Assembly (NCBI GenBank): GCA_029884455.1
Contig: JAOUHU010000003.1
Location: forward strand, 1 to 64,000
Reading direction: 5' to 3'
From: Gammaproteobacteria bacterium
GTDB taxonomy: Bacteria; Pseudomonadota; Gammaproteobacteria; Steroidobacterales; Woeseiaceae
Length of the DNA stretch: 64,000 bases
A program made the position numbers and the translations under genes. This document shows positions 15,561 to 48,722 of the stretch, piece by piece. Below the pieces are notes generated by a model. That model did not search any database and was not told the DNA's origin. It saw only the letters and a program-made list of their open reading frames with translations. Positions within the stretch are counted from its first letter, which is position 1, and each line of letters begins with the position of its first letter.

Positions 15561-16366
15561 GCTTTGTTCTCCTTATCGTTGCGCTTGAAAGAGCCACGCG
15601 ATTGCGTGGCAGTTATGAATCGACTCCGATACTCCGGGTGTTCGGTATTCATGCAGCGGTCCCACCAGGTGAAATAGAGTCCGAAGTTGTAGCCGCCGTT
15701 TGAGTGGTGCAGGTCGTGATGCGTCGTCGTCGTAACGCATCGCAGCAACGGCACGCGAAGCCACCAGCCGGGAAAGATTTCGAATCCCGCATGGCCGATG
15801 ACATTGCGCAGGATCATGTGGGACACGAATAGCAGCACGGTGATTTCGTGCGTCGAAATCAGTAATCCGGCCACCGGCAGGAATGCGGCTTCGATGATTG
15901 CCTCGGGCGGCGCAAATGAGTAAGCGGCCCAGGGGGTCGGTGTGCGGGACTTGTGGTGCAGGCGATGTACGCGCCGGAACAGCCAGCGCGTGTGCATGCC
16001 GCGGTGCGCCCAGTAAAACCAGGTATCGTGCAGCAGCACCAGGAGGGCGAATTCAAACAACAATTGCCCGCTGCCCGGCAAAGCGCTGCCATAGATGCTG
16101 AACATGCCGTGCTGGCTACCCGCGTAGACGCAGAAGCCAACCAGCGAGAACAGGACGACGGTGCTGAGGGAGAAGCCGATCTCGCGGCGAATGTCAGCAC
16201 TGGTTGCGCGCCTGTGCTGGATACGGCGGGCGGCGATCGGTCTGGCGACCAGCGCGAGCACCGACGCCAATCCGCCAGCCGCGATCAGGTAGCGGGACAG
16301 ATCGAGTACCAGTATCGTCGGCCATGCGGCCTGGAACAGCTCAGAAAGGGTGCCTGTTTGGCTCAT
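15557..16366 (-). CDS. Fatty acid hydroxylase / sterol desaturase-family membrane enzyme
   Basis: 269 residues with four or more hydrophobic helices. The di-iron histidine boxes are all present: 'HDTWFYWAHRGMH', 'HRLHHKS' and 'TTHHDLHHSNGGYNFG'. The family uses these histidines to bind two irons and hydroxylate or desaturate lipids at the inner membrane. The spacing and C-terminal 'WWDRCMNTEHPEYRSRF' fit the superfamily of integral membrane hydroxylases; the lipid substrate is not predictable. It is coupled to the small secreted protein downstream. Confidence 0.9.
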   Translation of the reverse strand: MSQTGTLSELFQAAWPTILVLDLSRYLIAAGGLASVLALVARPIAARRIQHRRATSADIRREIGFSLSTVVLFSLVGFCVYAGSQHGMFSIYGSALPGSGQLLFEFALLVLLHDTWFYWAHRGMHTRWLFRRVHRLHHKSRTPTPWAAYSFAPPEAIIEAAFLPVAGLLISTHEITVLLFVSHMILRNVIGHAGFEIFPGWWLRVPLLRCVTTTTHHDLHHSNGGYNFGLYFTWWDRCMNTEHPEYRSRFITATQSRGSFKRNDKENKA

Positions 16367-16471
16367 GCTTGCACTCCGGATGCGGGATTTCGGAGTGCAA
16401 AGTAAGGCTGCGGGCCGGTCGGAATCTCGCCGATAATGGCGAACTAGCGCCGATTTCGAAACGGGCGAGGT

Positions 16472-17539
16472 TTATTCAGAATCGGCGCGTGCCTGTCCGA
16501 GGTGCTGGCGCCGGTGGTCTGTCGGTGTTCTCCCGGTGGCTTGCTTGAACGCGCGGTTGAACGGGCCGAGCGATGCATAGCCGAGATCCAGCGCGATGCT
16601 CAGGACCGGCAGCCTGGCCAGCGCGGGATCTGCCAGCCGGCGCTTGGCCTCCTCGATCCGGTAGCTGTTGAGAAACGCCGAGAAGTTACGGAAACCCATG
16701 CGGCCGTTAATCAGCCGGCGCAACTGGTGTTCGGGATAGGAGAGCCTGGCAGCCAGCGCTTTGATGGTCAGGCCGGTTTCGCGGTATACGCCGTCCTGCA
16801 TCAGCTTTAGCAGCGCCACGTGCAAGACGCGTTCCGCAGCACCGAGAGATTCTTCCCCGAGCGGCACCTTTACCGTGCGGGTACCCGTGGCAATGGCGAA
16901 GAACTCGGGATTGAGGCGCAACATCGGCGTCGCAAAGCCGAGCGTCAGGAGTGCGATGATGATGACATTGCTTAGCTCCAGCCAGCCGGGCAGTGGTCTG
17001 CCGCTGAAGGCAAGTTCCACCACGAGCACCGCGGCCACCTGGACCGAGACCAGCACCAAAAACAACAGGCGAAACGAGCGGCGGTTTTCCAACAGGTCGT
17101 CGGGCCTGCCATTGACGGTCAACCACAGCGCGTGCGCCACGACCAGCAGTGCCGCGACGTGCATGGTGCCGTTCGCCGCTGTTGACCAGGCTGTACTCAA
17201 TGTCTCGCCAGCGAGGTAAATGATCCAGCTGGCGATGGCAATGGCAGCAGCGATGACGATCAACGATGATGGCGGCCAGTCGGATTCGAAAATTGCGCGC
17301 GCAAACAGCCACAGGCAGTAGGGGACAATCAGCGCCAGCAAGACGGCCAGTGGCAACAGCTGCGGCAGCAGGTTGCGCAGCGTGTCATCAGAAACGAACA
17401 GATAGCCGACGAGACTCAGCATGAGCAGTGAACCGCCGCAGCGAGTCGCGCGGTCGCCGCGGCTGAACAGGAAAACCGCTGCAATCAGGACTTCCTGGCC
17501 GATAACGATCAGTCGAATGGCAGTTTCTGGTGACGGCAT
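16472..17539 (-). CDS. Membrane-bound AraC-family regulator
   Basis: 355 residues: six to seven predicted transmembrane helices occupy residues 1 to about 215, followed by a C-terminal AraC double helix-turn-helix. The DNA-binding part is recognisable from 'GLTIKALAARLSYPEHQLRRLIN' and the second HTH 'VLSIALDLGYASLGPFNRAFKQATGRTP'. Regulators of this design sense a membrane or periplasmic cue. It lies upstream of the lipid hydroxylase gene on the same strand with about 105 bases between, so that gene is a candidate target. Confidence 0.9.
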   Translation of the reverse strand: MPSPETAIRLIVIGQEVLIAAVFLFSRGDRATRCGGSLLMLSLVGYLFVSDDTLRNLLPQLLPLAVLLALIVPYCLWLFARAIFESDWPPSSLIVIAAAIAIASWIIYLAGETLSTAWSTAANGTMHVAALLVVAHALWLTVNGRPDDLLENRRSFRLLFLVLVSVQVAAVLVVELAFSGRPLPGWLELSNVIIIALLTLGFATPMLRLNPEFFAIATGTRTVKVPLGEESLGAAERVLHVALLKLMQDGVYRETGLTIKALAARLSYPEHQLRRLINGRMGFRNFSAFLNSYRIEEAKRRLADPALARLPVLSIALDLGYASLGPFNRAFKQATGRTPTDHRRQHLGQARADSE

Positions 17540-17568
17540 ACTGCCAGCAGTGTACCCAGGCCGCAGGG

Positions 17569-18054
17569 TCAGGCAAGGTCCCGGGCGTAAATCACTTTGG
17601 CATCGCCGGGCGCGTAAAAGTCGCTGATACTGGCTTCGACGTGATAGCCCATGCGCTCATAAAATGCCCGCGTTGGCGCGTAGCCACCACGGCCGGCAGT
17701 GTCGACGAACATGCGTGTTGCTCCGAGTTGCCTGGCAAGTTTCTCGGACTCTCGTAACAGCTTGCCACCCAGCCCCTGGCGCTGCTGGCCCGGCGCGACC
17801 GCGATCCAGTACAAGTCAAAACTTGATCGCGTGGCCGGAATCGGCCCGAAGCAGGTGTAGCCGAGCAGCTGATCCGCTTGCTCCGGGTCATCGGCGAACA
17901 GGAACTCATAACCACTCGCCTTGCCGCGTGCCAGTGCCTCGTCAACAAGTTCGATCGCGATGAGCTGTTCCTCGGGCGAGAAAAAACCGGTGGCGCCGAC
18001 GAGCCTGCCGACAGCGCCGGCATCCGATGCCTGCAGTGTGCTGCGCCAGTGCAT
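17569..18054 (-). CDS. GNAT acetyltransferase, last gene of the KamA/ATP-grasp operon
   Basis: 161 residues from the ATG at 18054, which overlaps the stop of the upstream GNAT-HDAC gene (TGATG), so it is translationally coupled. The acetyl-CoA site is 'LYWIAVAPGQQRQGLGGKLLRESEKLARQ' (R-x-x-G-x-G/A), and 'APTRAFYERMGYHVEA' is the C-terminal GNAT motif. In this operon it is a candidate for acetylating an amine of the product made by the aminomutase and the ligases. Its acceptor is not known. Confidence 0.88.
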   Translation of the reverse strand: MHWRSTLQASDAGAVGRLVGATGFFSPEEQLIAIELVDEALARGKASGYEFLFADDPEQADQLLGYTCFGPIPATRSSFDLYWIAVAPGQQRQGLGGKLLRESEKLARQLGATRMFVDTAGRGGYAPTRAFYERMGYHVEASISDFYAPGDAKVIYARDLA

Positions 18055-19814
18055 CAGCGCTTCTTTCCGGTCGCGGCTTTGAGGGCGAGTCCGTCCCATA
18101 GGCCGTTGAAAAAGTGGCGCGCATTGATGCCCAGTGTTTGCGTCTTGTAGCCGCCTTCCTGCACCACCAGCGTCGGCATTTGGAGGCCTCCGATCATGCG
18201 GCCATTTTCACGAAAGTCCCTGGCCATCAGGGAGAAGGACCCGGTTGGGTCGCCCTTGGCGGTGTCGAGTCCCAGCGACACTACCAGGAACTGGGGGCCG
18301 AATTTGCGGATTTTCCCGAGCGCGCCGGCCAGCACTTTGCGATAGCGCTCGCCATCAAGGTTCTCCGGCAACGGAAAATTGAGGTTGTACCCCTTGCCTT
18401 CGTCCGCACCTTTCTCGTCTTCGAAGCCGGAAAAGTAGGGATAGCTGTAGCGCGGGTGACCGTGCAGCGAAATTGTGAATACGTCTTTGCGTTTGTAAAA
18501 AATGTCCTGCGCGCCATTACCGTGGTGATAGTCAATGTCCAGCAGGACGACCTTGCCATGCTTGCTCAAATGATGCGCGGCGATCGCTGCTGAATTGAAA
18601 TAACAGAAGCCTCCAAAGGCTTCGTACTCGGCGTGATGGCCAGGTGGACGAACCAGTGCGTAGGCCGCTGGGCTGCCGTCGAGCAAGCAGTCGGCACCCG
18701 TCATTGCGCAGTCCACGGACCGGCGCGCCGCCTTGTATGCGTTGGCGTTCAGGGGTGTGAAGGTGTCGATGCAGTAATAACCTGCGCGCAACGGAAGTTC
18801 GCGAGGCGGCCGGGTACGGTTGCGTACCGGAAAAACATACGGGTAGACAGACTGGCCCGGTGGCACGTTTTCGCAGGCCCTGCGTAGGAACTGGACAAAT
18901 TCCGGCTTGTGCACCTGTTCTATGACGCCAATGCCGTAACTGCGCGGAGCGATGGACTCGAACACTTTGCTCTTGGCGAGTTCCTTCGTAATGACCGGGA
19001 TTCGAACCGGCGCCTCAACGTAGCCGCGGTCGTTGACATGGTGAATCGAGTGCTGGTCGTTGATCACCAGCGCGATCCGTAGCTGCTTCGGCTGGACGGA
19101 CTGCGGTTTTTCTTCGGCTTTCAGGTAGCGGGGCGCACGCAATCGCACCGGGTCATCCTTGATGGACCTGACGACCATGTCGACATACTCGGGTGAGCAA
19201 GTGCCGCTGTACTTGCGTTCAAGAATCGCGCGAACAATATGTCGCACCTCATCACGCCGTAACCGCCGGCCAGGCCGCCCGAGATCGTCGTATACGAGGT
19301 AGGGCGGGTCGGTGGCGTCGTCGGTCAGCGGTGTTTCATAGGCGGTGTTGGCCAGTGGGCGCGCACCGAAGCGCTCATAAAACCGGAGGCGCGCAACATT
19401 TTGTTTGCGAATCGCCGGGTTGGGTGACAGCTCCGCCGTGTCTGGCAGACACTCCAGGAAAAGGCCGATAACGCCGAGCTGGAAGGCCTCCTCGCGGGCA
19501 CGCGCATATAATGCGCCGCCGATACCGCCACCGGTATCGCCCCGGCCGGCACAGATGTAATCGAGATAGCAGAAATTCAAGTCGGGCGCATGCTGCAACA
19601 TGGCAAAGCCACGCACGATACCGTTGCCGTTCTCGGCCACCAGCAGGATCGAGCGAAAACGAAACTTCATCGGGTTGGCTAGCTGTGACGGCAGCTTGGC
19701 GATGTCTTTCTCGCTCAAGCCGTCAAACTGCACGCGCAGCATCGCCTGAACCTGGCTTAGCAGCTGGCGATTGGTCGAAGTTGTGACGTCAAAAATCTTG
19801 TGGATACGAAACAT
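18054..19814 (-). CDS. GNAT acetyltransferase-HDAC deacetylase fusion protein
   Basis: 586 residues. The N-terminal 165 residues form a GNAT-like domain: 'DYICAGRGDTGGGIGGALYARAREEA' is the acetyl-CoA loop and 'RLRFYERFGARPL' the last motif. From about residue 245 it is a class II/acetylpolyamine amidohydrolase-type HDAC. 'RPPGHHAEY' carries the catalytic His pair, 'LLDIDYHHGNG' two zinc ligands, 'GLDTAKGDPTG' the third ligand, and 'EGGY' the transition-state Tyr. All catalytic residues are thus in place. One chain that can both add and remove acetyl groups is unusual; deacetylation of a protected beta-lysine-type intermediate would fit the context. Only 3 bases separate it from the upstream ATP-grasp gene. 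Confidence 0.9.
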   Translation of the reverse strand: MFRIHKIFDVTTSTNRQLLSQVQAMLRVQFDGLSEKDIAKLPSQLANPMKFRFRSILLVAENGNGIVRGFAMLQHAPDLNFCYLDYICAGRGDTGGGIGGALYARAREEAFQLGVIGLFLECLPDTAELSPNPAIRKQNVARLRFYERFGARPLANTAYETPLTDDATDPPYLVYDDLGRPGRRLRRDEVRHIVRAILERKYSGTCSPEYVDMVVRSIKDDPVRLRAPRYLKAEEKPQSVQPKQLRIALVINDQHSIHHVNDRGYVEAPVRIPVITKELAKSKVFESIAPRSYGIGVIEQVHKPEFVQFLRRACENVPPGQSVYPYVFPVRNRTRPPRELPLRAGYYCIDTFTPLNANAYKAARRSVDCAMTGADCLLDGSPAAYALVRPPGHHAEYEAFGGFCYFNSAAIAAHHLSKHGKVVLLDIDYHHGNGAQDIFYKRKDVFTISLHGHPRYSYPYFSGFEDEKGADEGKGYNLNFPLPENLDGERYRKVLAGALGKIRKFGPQFLVVSLGLDTAKGDPTGSFSLMARDFRENGRMIGGLQMPTLVVQEGGYKTQTLGINARHFFNGLWDGLALKAATGKKR

Positions 19815-19817
19815 GTC

Positions 19818-20798
19818 TCAGTGCATAGCGGCGCTGACGATGTGCTCAATGGCCCGCGTCGGCGTCATGCCGGCCTCCATGACGGCAGCGGCGAAGCCGG
19901 CGTCCGGGGACAGGCATGGGTTGGCATTGATTTCGAGCACCCAGGGTACCCCGGCTGCGTCGAGGCGCAGATCGATTCTTGCATAGCCCTTGAGCTTGAA
20001 GGCCCGCCAGCATTTTTGCACAACGTCGACAATTGCGTCGTGCTCGGCACTCGGCAGCTCTGCAAACGAGCGCTGCGTCGCGTGAAACTCAGGTGTGGCG
20101 TCATCCCATTTCGCCGCGTAGCCAACGATTCTTGGTTTACCCGGCGGATAGTCAACGAAAGTCATCTCTGCGATTGGCAGAATTCGCGGTTTGCGGTCCA
20201 CTTCGAGCACCGAGACATTAAATTCCCGGCCGTCGATAAACTGCTCGGCGAACCAGGCGCCACCGTGTTGCGCATGGCAATGATCGATGCGCGCGCGTGC
20301 CGCTGTTAACCCAGTGACGACGCAACCGTCGTCGAGACCCAGCGACGCGTGCTCCCAGAGTGACTTCACGATCCAGGCAGTCTTGTCCACCGGTTTATCG
20401 TCACCCGGCAAAAAGCTCGCCGGAGTCGGAATGTCGTGCAGCTTCATCCAGCGCTTCGCGAGCAGCTTTTGCGAGCTCAGGTACATCGCGTCGCTGTCGC
20501 AGCCGGTGAAGCGTATTCCGGCGGAGCCGAGCAGCGCCGGCAGCATGTGCACCAGGCGCCCGTCGCCGCGCAGTGACTCGACCAGGTTAAACACACACTC
20601 CACGTTGCTGGCCGAAATCGCTGCCAGGGTCTTGGACAGGTCAAGGTCCGTCGCCAGGGTAGTAACGCTCCAGCCCAGTTGCTGCATAACGTCGCCGACG
20701 TATCGGGCCTGGACGAGAGTGTCTACTTCGTCGGCACGCGCATCGGTGCTGATAGTCTCATGCAATACGAGGACCGATCTGGGGAAATCAGGCGGCAA
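19818..20798 (-). CDS. ATP-grasp ligase, D-Ala-D-Ala ligase-like (second of two)
   Basis: 326 residues. It has an N-terminal pre-ATP-grasp half with 'VFNLVESLRGDGRLVHMLPALL', then the ATP-grasp core with 'EQFIDGREFNVSVLE' and the metal-binding 'ARIDLRLDAAGVPWVLEINANPCLSP'. The family joins a carboxylate to an amine via an acyl phosphate. It is only distantly like the neighbouring ligase, so it probably uses another substrate. Its start lies 11 bases inside the upstream ligase gene, so the two are tightly coupled. A cell-wall ddl is unlikely given the operon partners. Confidence 0.88.
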   Translation of the reverse strand: MPPDFPRSVLVLHETISTDARADEVDTLVQARYVGDVMQQLGWSVTTLATDLDLSKTLAAISASNVECVFNLVESLRGDGRLVHMLPALLGSAGIRFTGCDSDAMYLSSQKLLAKRWMKLHDIPTPASFLPGDDKPVDKTAWIVKSLWEHASLGLDDGCVVTGLTAARARIDHCHAQHGGAWFAEQFIDGREFNVSVLEVDRKPRILPIAEMTFVDYPPGKPRIVGYAAKWDDATPEFHATQRSFAELPSAEHDAIVDVVQKCWRAFKLKGYARIDLRLDAAGVPWVLEINANPCLSPDAGFAAAVMEAGMTPTRAIEHIVSAAMH

Positions 20799-21813
20799 CC
20801 GACTCTGCCCGTGCCGTGCGCCTGAGTCGCTGCGTTGCGGATGCCATGATCCGGCCGATCAGGACGTCGTACTTGATACCGGACATGGTCGCCATGATCG
20901 GTAAATCCGAATGCTGCGGATGAATGCCGGCCAGCGGATTGACCTCGAGGAAGTGTACCTGCCCGTTATCGTCCAGGCGCAGGTCGATGCGACCCGCGTC
21001 GCGACAGCCCAACGCACGCCAGCTGCGCAGCGCCACCGCCTCGACGTCCTGGCGAAGCTGCCCGGTGGGCAGCAGGCTGTACTGTACAAGCTGTTCGCAT
21101 TCCTCTTTGTTGCGATAGGAATAGACTTCGGCGTCGGCGCCCTCCAGCAAAACGATTTCCATAGTGGCGAGCGCCTTAGCTTTGCGACCGGTGCCGACAA
21201 TACCGACCGTAAATTCGCGGCCGGGCAGGAATCGCTCAACCAGGACGGGTTGGCCTTTATGCTCGTTTAGCAGCCTGCGGCACACATTGCGGAGTTCCGC
21301 CATGCTGTTGATCTTCGAAGTCGCACTGATGCCCTTGCCGGTTCCTTCCGCAATGGGTTTGGCGAACAGTGGCAGCGGCAATGAAATACCCTTCAAATCC
21401 TGCATCTCGTTCACGATCGCGTAGTCAGGTGTTGCGACACCGGCGGCTCGCACAACATCTTTGGTCATGCCCTTGTGCAATGTCAGGGCGCAGACCAGCG
21501 CATCCGAGAACACATACGGGATCTCGTAGGCGTCGAGCAGGGCGGGCACCTGCGCCTCGCGAGCGATGCCATGCATGCCCTCGCAGATATTGAACACCAT
21601 GTCCCAGCTATCGCCGCTGGTCAGGCGTGCGGCGAGCTGTTTTACGTTGCCGATGCGGTCAACCACATAGCCTTGCCGCTTCAGTGTGGATTCGATGCTG
21701 TCGATGGTATCAGCGCGATCAAACTCGGCCGTATCAATCTCGCTGTATCCCGCGGCAAGGTAAGCGTCACGCAGGTCATAGGTCAGTCCGATCCGAATTC
21801 CGTTATTTTTCAT
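20788..21813 (-). CDS. ATP-grasp ligase, D-Ala-D-Ala ligase-like (first of two)
   Basis: 341 residues. 'MVFNICEGMHGIAREAQVPALLDAYEIPYVFSD' is the characteristic N-terminal segment of D-Ala-D-Ala ligase relatives. It is followed by 'LPLPLFAKPIAEGTGKGIS' (ATP loop), 'VLVERFLPGREFTVGIVG' and 'GRIDLRLDDNGQVHFLEVNPLAG' with the metal ligands. It begins 2 bases after the aminomutase gene's stop. The obvious hypothesis is that it activates or receives the beta-amino acid made by that enzyme; the actual substrates are unknown. Confidence 0.88.
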   Translation of the reverse strand: MKNNGIRIGLTYDLRDAYLAAGYSEIDTAEFDRADTIDSIESTLKRQGYVVDRIGNVKQLAARLTSGDSWDMVFNICEGMHGIAREAQVPALLDAYEIPYVFSDALVCALTLHKGMTKDVVRAAGVATPDYAIVNEMQDLKGISLPLPLFAKPIAEGTGKGISATSKINSMAELRNVCRRLLNEHKGQPVLVERFLPGREFTVGIVGTGRKAKALATMEIVLLEGADAEVYSYRNKEECEQLVQYSLLPTGQLRQDVEAVALRSWRALGCRDAGRIDLRLDDNGQVHFLEVNPLAGIHPQHSDLPIMATMSGIKYDVLIGRIMASATQRLRRTARAESVAA

Positions 21814-21815
21814 GC

Positions 21816-23063
21816 TCAGGCTCCCGGCCCGCGTGTCAGGCGCTGTCCGGAGTCCGGATAGCGATAGGTGTCACCGTCATAGCTCTGCAACAGAAGGTCA
21901 TCGCCCTCGTAGCCAACCACGTAATCGGGCGCAATCGGAATCTTGCCGCCGCCCTTTGGCGCATCGACGACGAAAGTCGGTACCGCGTAGCCGGTCGTGT
22001 GGCCGCGCAGGCCACGTATCAGCTCGATGCCTTTGGCCACCGGAGTACGAAAATGCGCGGATCCCGAAATCGGGTCGCACTGGTACAGGTAGTAAGGCTT
22101 GACACGGTTCTTCAGCAGTCCGTGCATCAGCGTGCGCATCGTGTCGATGTCGTCGTTGACGTCTTTCAGCAATACCGTCTGGCTGCCGAGCGGAATGCCG
22201 GCGTCAGCGAGTCGACCACAGGCTTCCGCGACTTCGGGGGTGAGCTCATCCGGGTGCGTGAAATGCAGGCTCATCCATAGCGGATGGCAGCGTTTCAGTA
22301 CGCGCGTCAACTGCGGTGTGATACGCATCGGTTGCACGACCGGCTGCTTGCTGCCAATACGCACAAACTCAACATGCCTGATCTTTTGCAGCCTTTTCAG
22401 GATGTACTCGAGCCGATCGTCGTCGAGGCTCAGCGGGTCGCCGCCGGAAATCAGCACGTCCCGCACGGCTTTGGTGCGCTCGATATAGTCGAGCGCCAGC
22501 TCTATATCACCCTTCTTGACGCTGCGTTCACCGGCGGCACCGACCATGCGCGCGCGCGTGCAATAGCGGCAATACACCGAGCAATAATTGGTGACCAGCA
22601 GCAAGACCCGGTCCGGGTAGCGGTGCACCAGGCCCGGTACCGGACTGTGCGTATCCTCGCCCAGCGGATCTTCGCTTTCGGCACGCGAGATTTCGTACTC
22701 GCCGAGCACCGGCACAACCGTGCGTCGCAGGCCCTGGGCGGCATTTTGCGGATCGAGCAGGCTCGCGTAGTAAGGCGTTATACCAACAGGCAGCGCGCCG
22801 GTATGGCGCTTGATGGCATCGGACTCTTCGTCCGAGAGTTCGATCATGCGCGCCAGATCCGCAAGCGTGCGAACACGATTGCGATTCTGCCAGCGCCAGT
22901 CGTTCCAGTTTTCCAGCGTCGCATCCGGGTAGAAGCGGTGCAGAAAATCTACGGATCGCTTTGAAACGCGAAACCGTGACGGGCCAATTGATCGTGAGGG
23001 TTTTGAGGCAGGTTGGACCAGAGGTCCCGGAGGTTCTTCCGCGGCGACTTGGGCGGTTTTCAT
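21816..23063 (-). CDS. kamA: Lysine 2,3-aminomutase (radical SAM, PLP)
   Basis: 415 residues from the ATG at 23063 (a start 28 codons further up is possible). 'WNDWRWQNRNRVRTLADL' is the KamA N-terminal signature. 'TNYCSVYCRYCTRARMVG' gives the CxxxCxxC cluster of radical SAM enzymes. 'VLLKDVNDD' and 'YQCDPISGSAHFRTP' carry the two Asp that hold the lysine side-chain amine in characterised KamA, and 'DAPKGGGK' the PLP lysine. It converts L-lysine to beta-lysine. The length and the WNDWRWQ region separate it from EpmB, which acts on EF-P. First gene of the five-gene operon. Confidence 0.9.
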   Translation of the reverse strand: MKTAQVAAEEPPGPLVQPASKPSRSIGPSRFRVSKRSVDFLHRFYPDATLENWNDWRWQNRNRVRTLADLARMIELSDEESDAIKRHTGALPVGITPYYASLLDPQNAAQGLRRTVVPVLGEYEISRAESEDPLGEDTHSPVPGLVHRYPDRVLLLVTNYCSVYCRYCTRARMVGAAGERSVKKGDIELALDYIERTKAVRDVLISGGDPLSLDDDRLEYILKRLQKIRHVEFVRIGSKQPVVQPMRITPQLTRVLKRCHPLWMSLHFTHPDELTPEVAEACGRLADAGIPLGSQTVLLKDVNDDIDTMRTLMHGLLKNRVKPYYLYQCDPISGSAHFRTPVAKGIELIRGLRGHTTGYAVPTFVVDAPKGGGKIPIAPDYVVGYEGDDLLLQSYDGDTYRYPDSGQRLTRGPGA

Positions 23064-23233
23064 CGAGCATCCTACAGTGCAGTTGGGCGACCTGCGAGTG
23101 AAAACCGGCCCGGCCCTTCGGGTCGTGGCGGGGTATGCCCGCCTCATAATCGCGGTACTATAATCTTGAGCTATCGATTGTCAATGATTCTTTTCACAGT
23201 CCTTAATGGCGGAAAAAAACAGCGACTTCGTCC

Positions 23234-24430
23234 TCAAGGGAGCATCCGAACGAGGAGTCCGCAGAGGTAATCTGCTTCAGGAAACTGCAACGCGACCGGG
23301 TGGTCCGGAGCCTGCGACAGGCGTTCGATAATCTGTGCGTCGCAGCGCACGTCCGCGGCCGCACCAGCGACGATCTTCTGGAACAGATCGGCACTGACGT
23401 GCCCGGAACAGGAGAATGTCGCGAGTACTCCGCCCGGTTTCAGCAGCTGCAGTCCCAGCATGTTGATGTCCTTGTAGCCGCGGCAGCCGGATTGCAACTG
23501 TTGCGCCGAGCTGACGAACTTTGGCGGGTCGAGTACGACGAGGTCGTAACGTTGCCCGGAGTCTCGCAGTCGGCGCAGCTCTTGCGGCACGTTGGCGTTG
23601 GTAAACTGACAGCGAGCGGCGACGCCATTCAGCGTGGCCTGGTGTGCGGCAAGTTGCAGCGCCTCAGCGGAGCTGTCTATCAAGCTTGCGTCAGCAGCGC
23701 CATGGTGCAGCGCAGCCAGGGCAAAGCCGCCGGAATAGGAGTAGGCATCCAGCACGCTGGCTCCTTTCGCATAGGCGGCGACGCGCAGGCGATTCACGCT
23801 TTGATCAAGATAGCTGCCGGTTTTCTGCCCCTGCTCGATGCTGACCAGCTGGCGTACTCCGTGCAACGTATATTCGACCGGCTCCCCTGGTAACTCACCG
23901 CGAAGCAGGCCGCTGCGCAGTTCCAGGCCTTCCTTGTGTCGGACGCTGGCGTCGGAACGCTCGTAGATCGCGCGTGGCACCAGCAGCTCTTCAAGGGCGG
24001 CCACGATCGCTTCGCGCCAGAACTCCGCGCCCACCGACAGCAACTGGCAAACCAGGTAATCACGATAGCGGTCGACAATCAGGCCGGGCAGTCCGTCGGC
24101 TTCGCTGAACACCAGGCGACAGGCGCCGGCATCGTCCATCAGGTGCAGCTGCCGACGCAATTCGATCGCCCGGGCGATTCGTTGTCGAATGAAAGCGGCA
24201 TTGATTGTGCTTGCCGCATCGAAGGACCAGGCCCTGGCGCGAATCTGTGATCTGGGAGACCAGGCGGCGTAGGCGAGGAACTCACCCGAATCGGACACCA
24301 CGCGCACCGTGGATCCGGCTTCGGGATTGCCGTTCACGCGTGCGATCGCACCGGAGAATACCCAGGGGTGGCGACGCCGGATCGACTTCTCGCGCCCGGC
24401 TTTCAGGCTAATTTGCGGAATGTTTTGCAC
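23234..24430 (-). CDS. rlmI: 23S rRNA (cytosine-C5)-methyltransferase RlmI-like
   Basis: About 398 residues. The N-terminal PUA-like domain begins 'LKAGREKSIRRRHPWVFSGAI'. It is followed by an EEHEA-like middle part ('FWREAIVAALEELL') and a Rossmann methyltransferase with 'VLDAYSYSGGFALAAL' for SAM, 'DLVVLDPPKF' as motif IV, and 'LATFSCSGHV' with the catalytic Cys. RlmI methylates C1962 of 23S rRNA. The GTG at 24430 places the start exactly where the family begins; a TTG at 24478 is an alternative, and neither has a good ribosome site. The gene overlaps the end of the HxlR gene upstream. Confidence 0.88.
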   Translation of the reverse strand: MQNIPQISLKAGREKSIRRRHPWVFSGAIARVNGNPEAGSTVRVVSDSGEFLAYAAWSPRSQIRARAWSFDAASTINAAFIRQRIARAIELRRQLHLMDDAGACRLVFSEADGLPGLIVDRYRDYLVCQLLSVGAEFWREAIVAALEELLVPRAIYERSDASVRHKEGLELRSGLLRGELPGEPVEYTLHGVRQLVSIEQGQKTGSYLDQSVNRLRVAAYAKGASVLDAYSYSGGFALAALHHGAADASLIDSSAEALQLAAHQATLNGVAARCQFTNANVPQELRRLRDSGQRYDLVVLDPPKFVSSAQQLQSGCRGYKDINMLGLQLLKPGGVLATFSCSGHVSADLFQKIVAGAAADVRCDAQIIERLSQAPDHPVALQFPEADYLCGLLVRMLP

Positions 24431-46224: not shown

Positions 46225-47748
46225 ATGATGAAGCGCCAATATACTTTTGTTCTGGCGGCCACGCTTGTCGTCGTCGGCCTGTCGGTGTTCGCTTTCCGGT
46301 GGCTGGTGCTCGGGTTCCCGGTTCAGCGCGACCAGGAAACGCCTGTCTGGACTGTCGAATCTGCCATCAGCTTCGACAGCGGACCCGGCTCGATCAAGGT
46401 CAACCTGCACATCCCGACGCTGACGCCGGGTTTTCGCACCCTGAATGAAAACCCGGTATCCCGCGGTTACGGGTTCAGCCTGAACTACGGCACCGGCGGG
46501 CGCGAAGCGCAGTGGGCAATTCGCCGCGCCGACGGACCCCAGACAATCTATTACCGCATCTCGGTGTTTGCCGACGCGACCAGCAAGCAGTCGGATACCA
46601 CGCCGCCGTTTCCGCCGTTGCCGACCATCAACGAACCATTCCGCACCGCCGTCGAGGTAATTGTTGCCGAAGTCAAGGAGCATTCCGCCGATACAGCCTC
46701 GTTTACCTCGGAATTATTGCGCCGCATGAACGACCCGTCACCGGATCCGAACGTCGAGCTACTGCGCTCAGAGGCCAAGACTAATGCCGATTTCGTACAG
46801 ACTGTTACGACCATACTGGCGTATGCACGCTTCCCCGCACGCGCCGTGCATGGCCTGCGACTGGAAGGACGCCAGAGCGATGCACAGATACTGACCTGGC
46901 TCGAGGTGCACGACGGCAACGACTGGCGCTATTTCAATCCTGCTACCGGCGCCGAAAATCTGCCGGCTAACTTCCTGGTCTGGTGGCGCGGCAATGAACC
47001 GCTTGTCTATGTTGAAGGCGGCAGCAATGTAAAGGTCAGTTTTGCCGTGCAGGATTACAATCTCGACACGGTGGCAATTGCGAGCTCCCAAGCCGAACAG
47101 CGCGGCGTCAGTTTGAGCGATTTCTCCCTCTACAGCCTGCCGATTCAAACCCAGGCAGTCTACAGCGTGTTGTTGATGATTCCGGTCGGCGCGCTCGTTA
47201 TGGTGTTTTTGCGCAACTTCATCGGCATCGAAACCTTCGGCACGTTCATGCCGGTGTTGATTGCACTGGCTTTTCGCGAGACCAAACTGTTCTGGGGTGT
47301 AGTGCTGTTTTGCCTGCTGATCGCGCTCGGCCTGAGCATCCGCTTCCTGCTTGAGCGACTGCGGCTGCTGCTCGTGCCACGACTCAGTGCGGTGCTCATC
47401 GTGGTAGTGATGCTGATGCTGCTGATCAGTCTCTTGTCGAATCGCCTCGGTACGGAAACCGGACTGTCGGTTGCGCTGTTTCCGATGGTTATCGTCGCTA
47501 TGACAATTGAGCGCATGTCGGTACTTTGGGAGGAGCGCGGCGCCATGGATGCGATTCGCGCCGGTCTCGGCAGCCTGCTGGTCGCAGTTGCCGCCTACAT
47601 ATGCATGGGCCTTTCGTGGCTCGAACACCTGATCTTCACCTTCCCTGAGCTGTTGCTGGTGGCTCTGGCGCTGGTCGTTATGGCCGGCAGGTATACCGGC
47701 TACCGCCTGCTCGAATTGCGACGTTTCCGGGCACTGGCGGATAGTTGA
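46225..47748 (+). CDS. 7TM protein with inactive transglutaminase domain
   Basis: 507 residues. An N-terminal helix anchors a periplasmic region (30-305) that contains a transglutaminase-like fold ('AYARFPARAVHGLRLEGRQSDAQ' and 'WLEVHDGNDWRYFNPATG'). The catalytic Cys expected before the first segment is not seen. From about residue 310 seven helices follow ('AVYSVLLMIPVGALVMVFLRNF' onward). The architecture is known as inactive transglutaminase fused to 7TM. The next gene, a RimK-like ligase, starts at its stop codon, the standard pairing for the family. Confidence 0.9.
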   Translation: MMKRQYTFVLAATLVVVGLSVFAFRWLVLGFPVQRDQETPVWTVESAISFDSGPGSIKVNLHIPTLTPGFRTLNENPVSRGYGFSLNYGTGGREAQWAIRRADGPQTIYYRISVFADATSKQSDTTPPFPPLPTINEPFRTAVEVIVAEVKEHSADTASFTSELLRRMNDPSPDPNVELLRSEAKTNADFVQTVTTILAYARFPARAVHGLRLEGRQSDAQILTWLEVHDGNDWRYFNPATGAENLPANFLVWWRGNEPLVYVEGGSNVKVSFAVQDYNLDTVAIASSQAEQRGVSLSDFSLYSLPIQTQAVYSVLLMIPVGALVMVFLRNFIGIETFGTFMPVLIALAFRETKLFWGVVLFCLLIALGLSIRFLLERLRLLLVPRLSAVLIVVVMLMLLISLLSNRLGTETGLSVALFPMVIVAMTIERMSVLWEERGAMDAIRAGLGSLLVAVAAYICMGLSWLEHLIFTFPELLLVALALVVMAGRYTGYRLLELRRFRALADS

Positions 47749-48722
47749 TGTTCGCGCTGGCGAGAAAATTGCACCAGGCGGGCGTGCTCGGCCTGAACGA
47801 GCGCAATGCCAATTTCATCTCGCGACTGAATCCGCGGCAGCTATATCCGCTTGTCGACGACAAGGTGCTCACCAAGGAAATCGCTATTGCAGCTGGCATG
47901 CCAGTGCCCGAGCTTTACGGCGTGATTGACAGTCAGCATGAGGCCGAGACTTTCGCTGAGCTGGTTGCGGAGCATGAAAAATTTGTAATCAAGCCAGCCC
48001 AGGGCAGTGGCGGCGACGGCATCCTTGTGATCACCGGGCGCAGCCAGCGACGACGTGACTCTTTCTGGCTGTCTAGCGGCCTGATGATCACGGAATCCGA
48101 GATTGCGCATCACATTTCCAATATTGTCAGCGGCCAATACAGCCTGAGCGGTAACCCGGACAAAGCGCTGATCGAGTACTGCGTGCAGTTCGACCCGGTG
48201 TTTGCTGCCGTAAGTTACCAGGGCGTGCCAGATGTCCGCGTCATTGTCTACCGCGGTTACCCGGCAATGGCCATGGTCCGGCTGCCGACGCGCGCATCCG
48301 ACGGCAAGGCCAACCTGCACCAGGGCGCCGTTGGTGCTGGCGTCGACATCAGCCTCGGCGAAACTCTCTCCGGGGTACTGTCCAACGGTCTTGTCGAGGA
48401 CCATCCGGAAACGGGAGCGCTGATCGCCGGCCTGCGCATCCCGCACTGGGATTTCATCCTGCAGTCATCAGCGCGTGGTTACGAGGTTACCGGCCTCGGC
48501 TATCTTGGCGTGGACATGGTGATTGACAGTCAGCTTGGCCCGTTGATGCTGGAGATGAATGCGCGACCGGGGCTCAATATCCAGATCGCCAATCGCGCCG
48601 GCCTGCGCCCGCGCCTTGCCCGCATCGACCAGATTTACGACGCCAGCGCCGGTCCGGAAGAGCGCGCCCGCATTGCCAGGCGTGAGTTCCCGGCCAACAA
48701 ACAAACCTCGATCGAATTTTGA
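47748..48722 (+). CDS. Alpha-L-glutamate ligase-like (RimK-related ATP-grasp) protein
   Basis: About 324 residues from the ATG at 47748, which shares its A with the upstream stop (TGATG). 'EKFVIKPAQGSGGDGILVI' is the ATP-grasp lysine loop, 'DVRVIVYRGYPAMAMVRLPT' the middle strand, and 'LGYLGVDMVIDSQLGPLMLEMNARPGLNIQIAN' the metal ligands. The family adds an amino acid to a carboxylate of a peptide or protein. Coupling with the 7TM gene suggests a membrane-linked modification system with unknown substrate. Confidence 0.9.
   Translation: MFALARKLHQAGVLGLNERNANFISRLNPRQLYPLVDDKVLTKEIAIAAGMPVPELYGVIDSQHEAETFAELVAEHEKFVIKPAQGSGGDGILVITGRSQRRRDSFWLSSGLMITESEIAHHISNIVSGQYSLSGNPDKALIEYCVQFDPVFAAVSYQGVPDVRVIVYRGYPAMAMVRLPTRASDGKANLHQGAVGAGVDISLGETLSGVLSNGLVEDHPETGALIAGLRIPHWDFILQSSARGYEVTGLGYLGVDMVIDSQLGPLMLEMNARPGLNIQIANRAGLRPRLARIDQIYDASAGPEERARIARREFPANKQTSIEF

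Follow-up and report, generated by a model that had tools for sequence, protein, structure and literature searches.

We analysed a 64,000-nucleotide stretch of DNA (contig JAOUHU010000003.1, positions 1 to 64,000, from a gammaproteobacterium of the Woeseiaceae; hereafter the window), which carries a compact operon of five genes, kamA, ligA, ligB, GNAT-HDAC and GNAT, at positions 17569–23063 on the minus strand. The system formed by these genes is probably a pathway for a β-lysine peptide. A fuller reading, in which ATP-grasp ligases in the cytoplasm make an acetylated β-lysine peptide that most likely serves as a compatible solute, and an additional enzyme turns over its acetyl group, appears evenly balanced to us, and we put the solute role of the product, taken by itself, somewhat below even.

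The preliminary description of this DNA had reported five minus-strand genes joined by overlaps or by gaps of at most 3 bases, and a direct reading of the open reading frames (ORFs) and their junctions confirmed it. In operon order, kamA and ligA are 2 bases apart, ligA and ligB overlap by 11 bases, ligB and GNAT-HDAC are 3 bases apart, and GNAT-HDAC and GNAT overlap by 1 base (TGATG), which supports a single operon of five genes.

The first gene, kamA (21816–23063), encodes a protein of 415 amino acids in the lysine 2,3-aminomutase subfamily, whose members use radical SAM and pyridoxal phosphate (PLP), with Radical_SAM and LAM_C domains. The protein scored 353 bits against the KamA family model TIGR00238 (cut-off 199) and has the CxxxCxxC motif, the PLP lysine and the lysine-binding Asp pair; the functional roles of these residues, and of those followed below in the HDAC domain, LigA and LigB, are presumed from their families. 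In an alignment of 46 rows comprising the window and its relatives, D330, D367 and K374 were kept in all rows, and the Cys triad and R170 in 45 (one gap), so that the lysine-type KamA of the preliminary description was upheld by the two Asp residues. The sole PDB match at E 0.001 was L-lysine 2,3-aminomutase (2a5h, E 1.8e-131).

The genes ligA (20788–21813, 341 amino acids) and ligB (19818–20798, 326 amino acids, TTG start) encode ATP-grasp carboxylate-amine ligases similar to D-alanine–D-alanine ligase (Ddl), of which LigB is the second, diverged one; the two were 22–23% identical. Both passed the cut-off of Dala_Dala_lig_C (93 bits for LigA and 60 bits for LigB) and kept the metal and ATP residues of such ligases. 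R275, D277, E290 and N292 of LigA were found in 50 of 51 rows (one gap); R274, D276 and N291 of LigB were found in all 52 rows, and E289 in 47, with Asp in the other five. The metal ligands are thus kept as had been described, apart from these E289 substitutions. Ddl enzymes were the nearest solved relatives of both ligases (E 3e-34 for the LigB family profile), and they share fold family, metal residues and ATP residues with LigA and LigB. Unlike Ddl, however, both ligases scored under the listed Ddl cut-offs, with 123 bits for LigA and 79 bits for LigB against TIGR01205 (cut-off 246), and 155 and 86 bits against NF002378 (cut-off 243), and they form a diverged pair, encoded next to each other and to kamA. 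The preliminary description had considered that such ligases might occur only with cell-wall genes; they occur with kamA. A separate cassette was seen in genome C134 (L016, 7522–10873), consisting of a weak Peptidase_Mx protein, a Ddl-like ligase with ~31% identity to LigB and a permease for amino acids, and ligases similar to the one in this cassette were also present in L017–L020. A region of three genes, among them an additional D-Ala-D-Ala ligase, is reported to be specific to deep-sea Colwellia (PMC7542103).

The GNAT-HDAC gene (18054–19814) encodes a fusion of 586 amino acids, with an N-terminal GNAT domain (19110–19814, 235 residues modelled) and an HDAC-fold deacetylase domain (18054–19079; Hist_deacetyl 247 bits, residues 266–571). 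The residues H148, H149, D183, H185, D272 and Y311 of the HDAC domain (H393, H394, D428, H430, D517 and Y556 in protein numbering) showed no deviant among 79 rows (1–4 gaps), so the zinc and catalytic residues are intact, as first described. The best PDB matches of this domain were 6phr, 9gkz, 3men and 3q9b (E 1.5e-71 to 3.1e-65), followed by HDAC6. It also has the residues of an acetylpolyamine amidohydrolase, namely the zinc ligands Asp-His-Asp, the His-His pair and the Tyr, and by sequence it is nearest to these small-molecule deacetylases, its closest solved relatives. It differs from them in its N-terminal GNAT domain (sometimes with a C-terminal one as well) and in its tie to the kamA and ligase core. 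Across the loci described below, 79 ORFs hold both GNAT and HDAC domains (duplicate records counted), and in another four just the GNAT part is present, three of these ORFs being truncated at a contig end and the fourth broken. The structure-based comparison of the N-terminal GNAT domain gave many GNATs tied in Z, and its substrate is therefore not readable from that comparison.

The last gene (17569–18054) encodes a stand-alone small GNAT of 161 amino acids (Acetyltransf_1), which in some relatives is fused behind the HDAC domain; GNAT-HDAC and the small GNAT formed one protein at 10 of 80 loci (11 ORFs, of which those of L015 and L080 are one gene). A close family member is PDB 2r7h (DDE_3044 of Desulfovibrio), labelled there as a putative D-alanine N-acetyltransferase, which the family profile matched at E 2.7e-56. 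The window protein did not match TIGR03827 (AblB) at E 0.001 and is not AblB; two of 21 family members matched this model weakly (best E 5.5e-6). The most frequent family was RimI, a ribosomal-protein acetyltransferase, matched by all 21 small GNATs (the window protein with 37 bits, cut-off 86). Streptothricin acetyltransferases acetylate the β-lysine of streptothricin. The window GNAT touched the model of these enzymes at E 9e-5, far under its cut-off, and the top PDB match of the N-terminal GNAT profile, itself weak, was a putative streptothricin acetyltransferase (3pp9, E 0.011); these matches are a faint hint that β-lysine may be the part acetylated.

To follow the gene set across bacteria, one genome per species (84,980 species) was scanned with a profile of the fusion's N-terminal GNAT domain built from three rows, and the best 80 of 87 confirmed loci were analysed, including two duplicates (L023 repeats the record of L014, and L080 that of L015). 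All four of kamA, ligA, ligB and GNAT were present at 38 of the 80 loci, and at least one of kamA, ligA and ligB at 12 more, giving 50 loci in cis, all of them with a ligase. The remaining 30 loci had none of these three genes (27 with nothing, 3 with just a fused small GNAT). A LigA profile search of 29 of these 30 genomes (L060, a 3.9 kb contig, was left out) yielded strong matches in 23 (E 1e-110 or better), weak matches in three and none in three, and kamA adjoined this trans ligA in 22 of the 23, mostly with ligB and GNAT. The search of other genomes suggested in the preliminary description thus found the genes together elsewhere, with GNAT-HDAC in differing positions: last but one, last, second, divergent or remote. 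By their record titles, the loci belong to Pseudomonadota, sulfate reducers, Bacteroidota, Planctomycetota, Spirochaetota, Calditrichota, KSB1, Margulisbacteria and others, and most are from metagenome assemblies. As the set is found again in distant bacteria and its genes occur together even at unlinked loci, the association of the genes is not due to chance.

Outside the system, no neighbour family was steady, the commonest occurring in 14 of 82 loci, and hence neither an exporter nor a target protein can be linked with the system. Among ten recurrent or adjacent neighbours scanned in Spirochaetes and Desulfobacterota, seven belonged to identified families (dihydrouridine synthase, tetrapyrrole methylase, alcohol dehydrogenase, AIR carboxylase, glycosyltransferase, cytidylyltransferase and a PALP enzyme) and three had no Pfam match.

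In a KamA tree of 56 rows, 45 system KamAs (counting the window and the identical pair L015/L080; one row of at most 330 residues was omitted) and five of the seven trans-locus KamAs were on one side of a branch (100/95); the other side held two AblAs, a further two KamAs and the last two trans-locus rows. Judged by this tree, the system KamAs are a separate branch of their own. The tree largely followed phyla, and the label 'system' alone needed five changes because trans rows are nested among system rows. A diverged variant was observed at L126–L131 (G041, G044 and G053), with two ligases (28–35% identity to LigA), a GNAT and a KamA (45–51% identity) in another order. At L096 (4416–9371, Margulisbacteria), kamA and ligA are one ORF of 776 amino acids, and GNAT-HDAC is split into several short ORFs.

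We then compared the distributions of ligA and GNAT-HDAC in an even sample of 149 genomes from the class to which a Desulfonatronum genome belongs. The ligA gene was found in 31 of them (E 2.2e-138 or better, with nothing between that and 1e-40), and the N-terminal domain of GNAT-HDAC in 26, all within the 31 and all in open frames of at least 581 codons. The two genes are thus co-inherited (Fisher 2e-24); this value overstates the independent evidence, since genomes of one class share ancestry, and the one-way pattern of 26 out of 26 stands. GNAT-HDAC was within 7 kb of ligA in nine of the 26 genomes, farther away on the same contig in four and on another contig in 13, indicating a link that is more than physical neighbourhood. 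Of the five ligA genomes without GNAT-HDAC, four showed kamA, ligA, ligB and the small GNAT, and the fifth kamA and ligA only. Two of these five had no HDAC-family match, and three had a distant one (29–36% identical) on a contig other than that of ligA. Within this class, kamA, ligA, ligB and GNAT look like the core of the system and GNAT-HDAC like an accessory gene. In the genus of the window, eight of 73 genomes had a strong ligA match.

The system resembles the Nε-acetyl-β-lysine pathway, made up of the lysine 2,3-aminomutase AblA and the acetyltransferase AblB, in its lysine-type KamA, in β-lysine as the likely precursor and in having a GNAT in the operon, but it differs in its KamA, in a GNAT that is not AblB, and in the addition of two ligases and GNAT-HDAC. 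The window KamA scored 473 bits against TIGR03820 (AblA; cut-off 525) and is by score not a canonical AblA; three other system KamAs scored 465, 456 and 509 bits, compared with 744 and 773 bits for AblA controls. In the four system KamAs scanned, the match stopped at 361–363 of 417 model positions, whereas it reached 417 in both controls, and the system KamAs therefore lack the canonical C-terminal tail of lysine aminomutase, which we take to be the zinc tail with its ligands. Two genomes (G103 and G076), which gave the strongest second KamA matches in a set of 36 and are not a random pick, each held a canonical ablA and a nearby AblB gene, all over the model cut-offs and apart from the system. 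In the class sample, AblB was found in 49 of 149 genomes, 24 of the 31 with ligA and 25 of the 118 without (p 1e-8). In this one class, the system sits with organisms already making a β-lysine solute. Elsewhere, a lysine 2,3-aminomutase (ablA) gene is reported to be under the control of Na+ and c-di-AMP riboswitches (PMC9337991).

We infer a pathway with the following substrates and order of steps. KamA would convert L-lysine to β-lysine, and LigA and LigB, each spending ATP, would form amide bonds between β-lysine and common amino acids. The small GNAT would acetylate a remaining amine, yielding a short, neutral or zwitterionic acetylated β-lysine peptide. GNAT-HDAC, as the accessory enzyme, would take off and perhaps restore the acetyl group, so that the product pool could be reused or its charge adjusted. 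The product would remain intracellular, which agrees with the failure of any exporter or target gene to recur nearby, and by analogy with N-acetylglutaminylglutamine amide (NAGGN) it would most likely act as a compatible solute. The enzyme making NAGGN is a fusion of GNAT and ATP-grasp domains, and its operon (PA3459–PA3461, or asnO-ngg) is the nearest working analogy for the system. The window operon differs from it in having no asparagine synthase and no aminopeptidase, with the β-lysine enzyme and the HDAC instead. No window protein matched TIGR03103 (Ngg synthetase) at E 0.001 (for LigA, among the best 25 of 36 matches), and one of 21 small GNATs matched it weakly (E 2.4e-4). NAGGN is reported to be a short acetylated peptide osmoprotectant, for which a single non-ribosomal enzyme both acetylates and forms the peptide bond, with a peptidase gene in the operon (PMC8070244).

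Several observations weigh against the acetylated β-lysine peptide solute. A sister genome of the same genus (G001; L013, 5990–9729) has the operon without a GNAT-HDAC gene between ligB and GNAT and with an in-frame TAA in ligB, which may be due to gene decay or to faulty assembly; in score and length, the three other HDAC-family genes of G001 are similar to three of the other ones in the window genome. Three genomes with GNAT-HDAC from outside the class sample gave no ligA match (their assemblies may be incomplete). The pairwise identities of the six parts were modestly correlated (Spearman 0.17–0.61 for 39 rows and 741 pairs), highest for ligB with the small GNAT, and this neither proves nor excludes transfer as a unit. 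The RimI matches mean that the fold family of the small GNATs gives no support for a peptide substrate. The association of AblB with ligA may result from shared ancestry, and AblB was not found in any of the 73 genomes of the window's genus; this absence, together with the coexistence of ablA-ablB elsewhere, suggests that the β-lysine made by the system is probably used otherwise. The 60 regions searched upstream of kamA contained no Rfam riboswitch at gathering scores; the 30 from cis loci were placed by the kamA match, and the 10 from trans genomes and 20 from the class sample were estimated from the position of ligA and not individually checked. BCCT osmolyte transporters showed no association (13 of the 31 ligA genomes versus 47 of 118 others), and some hosts, judged by their isolate names, seem to be from digesters or a coal bed. 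The salt evidence is thus indirect and mixed, with the AblB association and the riboswitch-controlled aminomutase gene reported elsewhere for a solute, and the riboswitch search, the BCCT result and the apparent origin of some hosts against it.

The interpretation given in the preliminary description is supported in part. It had held that KamA plus a GNAT makes N-epsilon-acetyl-β-lysine; in this simple form the claim is not supported, as the GNAT is not AblB and ablA-ablB coexists with the system in the two genomes inspected, and plain Nε-acetyl-β-lysine is an unlikely product. It is highly improbable that the operon makes just this compound and that the ligases serve something unrelated. The intact lysine site of KamA, the presence of a GNAT and the association with AblB genomes would agree with such a scheme, but kamA is with LigA at 22 of 23 trans loci, mostly along with ligB, a ligase is present at all 50 cis loci, and canonical ablA-ablB is separate in G103 and G076. 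We also consider it very unlikely that the system modifies a protein or translation factor, with a ligase putting β-lysine on it, as in the β-lysylation of EF-P, and GNAT and HDAC acetylating and deacetylating the site. The EF-P enzyme EpmB is a relative of KamA (the window protein scored 234 bits against the EpmB model, cut-off 369), RimI is the commonest match of the small GNATs, and HDAC-fold enzymes often act on proteins. However, the nearest solved ligase relatives are Ddl enzymes, which join free amino acids, the HDAC domain is nearest to acetylpolyamine amidohydrolases, and the neighbourhood contains no recurring target gene. A peptide that is secreted or bioactive, such as an antibiotic, a siderophore or a signal, is quite unlikely as the product: the pairing of non-ribosomal amide ligases with a modified amino acid is typical of specialised metabolism, but no transporter or resistance gene is tied to the system, the KamA tree agrees for the most part with phyla, as would suit a role in housekeeping or stress, and the LigA search of plasmids gave no match at E 1e-40.

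The part played by the acetyl group can be read in two further ways. It could be a protecting group, where a GNAT blocks one amine of β-lysine, the ligases use the other, and the HDAC removes the acetyl group in an obligatory last step to give a peptide with a free amine. Two GNATs and one deacetylase alongside two ligases would suit this scheme, as would the fusion of GNAT, HDAC and GNAT at 10 of 80 loci. We regard it as unlikely, however, because GNAT-HDAC is absent from five of the 31 ligA genomes, four of which have kamA, ligA, ligB and GNAT, and the five have either no HDAC-family match or HDACs 29–36% identical and off the contig of ligA. Of the two roles first proposed for acetylation and deacetylation, to protect or to tune the product, the protecting one was thus made less likely. 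Alternatively, GNAT-HDAC might be a bifunctional acetylation switch, whose opposing sites, carried by a single chain, determine the charge of a β-lysine peptide that has accumulated, and the triple fusion would then have the pathway's own acetyltransferase joined onto this switch as well. This idea is possible, if rather doubtful; if true, the switch would be to a metabolite what bifunctional kinase/phosphatase enzymes are elsewhere.

In open-licence full text, no paper was found that treats these genes together as a system, and an earlier mention in a 2009 survey of ATP-grasp amidoligases is possible. The accessible text of PMC11532494 contained no occurrence of aminomutase or ATP-grasp. The enzyme families are known, and their combination is apparently new to us. 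If true, the β-lysine peptide pathway would be a widespread route to a β-amino-acid peptide (in Pseudomonadota, sulfate reducers, Bacteroidota, Planctomycetota, Spirochaetota and others), would give a function to several proteins known as 'Ddl-like', 'HDAC-like' or GNAT, and would include a natural acetylase-deacetylase fusion in one chain tied to a metabolite and not to a protein. The source of 2r7h is listed as Desulfovibrio desulfuricans, presumably the earlier name of the laboratory strain Desulfovibrio alaskensis G20. Mutant pools of Desulfovibrio G20 have been described, with 150 mM NaCl or KCl among the conditions (PMC4001038), and with these pools and the existing structure from the small GNAT family, the question is directly testable.

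Upstream of kamA, a promoter-like site (TTGACA, 16 bases, TATAGT; 23157–23184, minus strand) was identified by consensus match only. It is intergenic, agrees with the consensus at 11 of 12 positions and was the best of five sites in 16300–23600, where shuffled sequences gave a mean of 2.1 sites (sd 1.3). The kamA start at 23063 (MKTAQ...) is also the start in two relatives (L013 and L014), and a longer frame begins at 23147. The gene upstream of the operon encodes an rRNA methyltransferase of RlmI type, with a score under the cut-off of that model. A gene for an AraC-type regulator (16472–17539, minus strand) lies 29 bases downstream of the operon on the same strand and may be cotranscribed with it; neither flanking gene was prominent among the recurrent neighbours of the gene set at other loci. 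Elsewhere in the window (46225–48722, plus strand), a 7TM inactive-transglutaminase protein gene is followed directly by an ATP-grasp gene of the sugar-transfer type.

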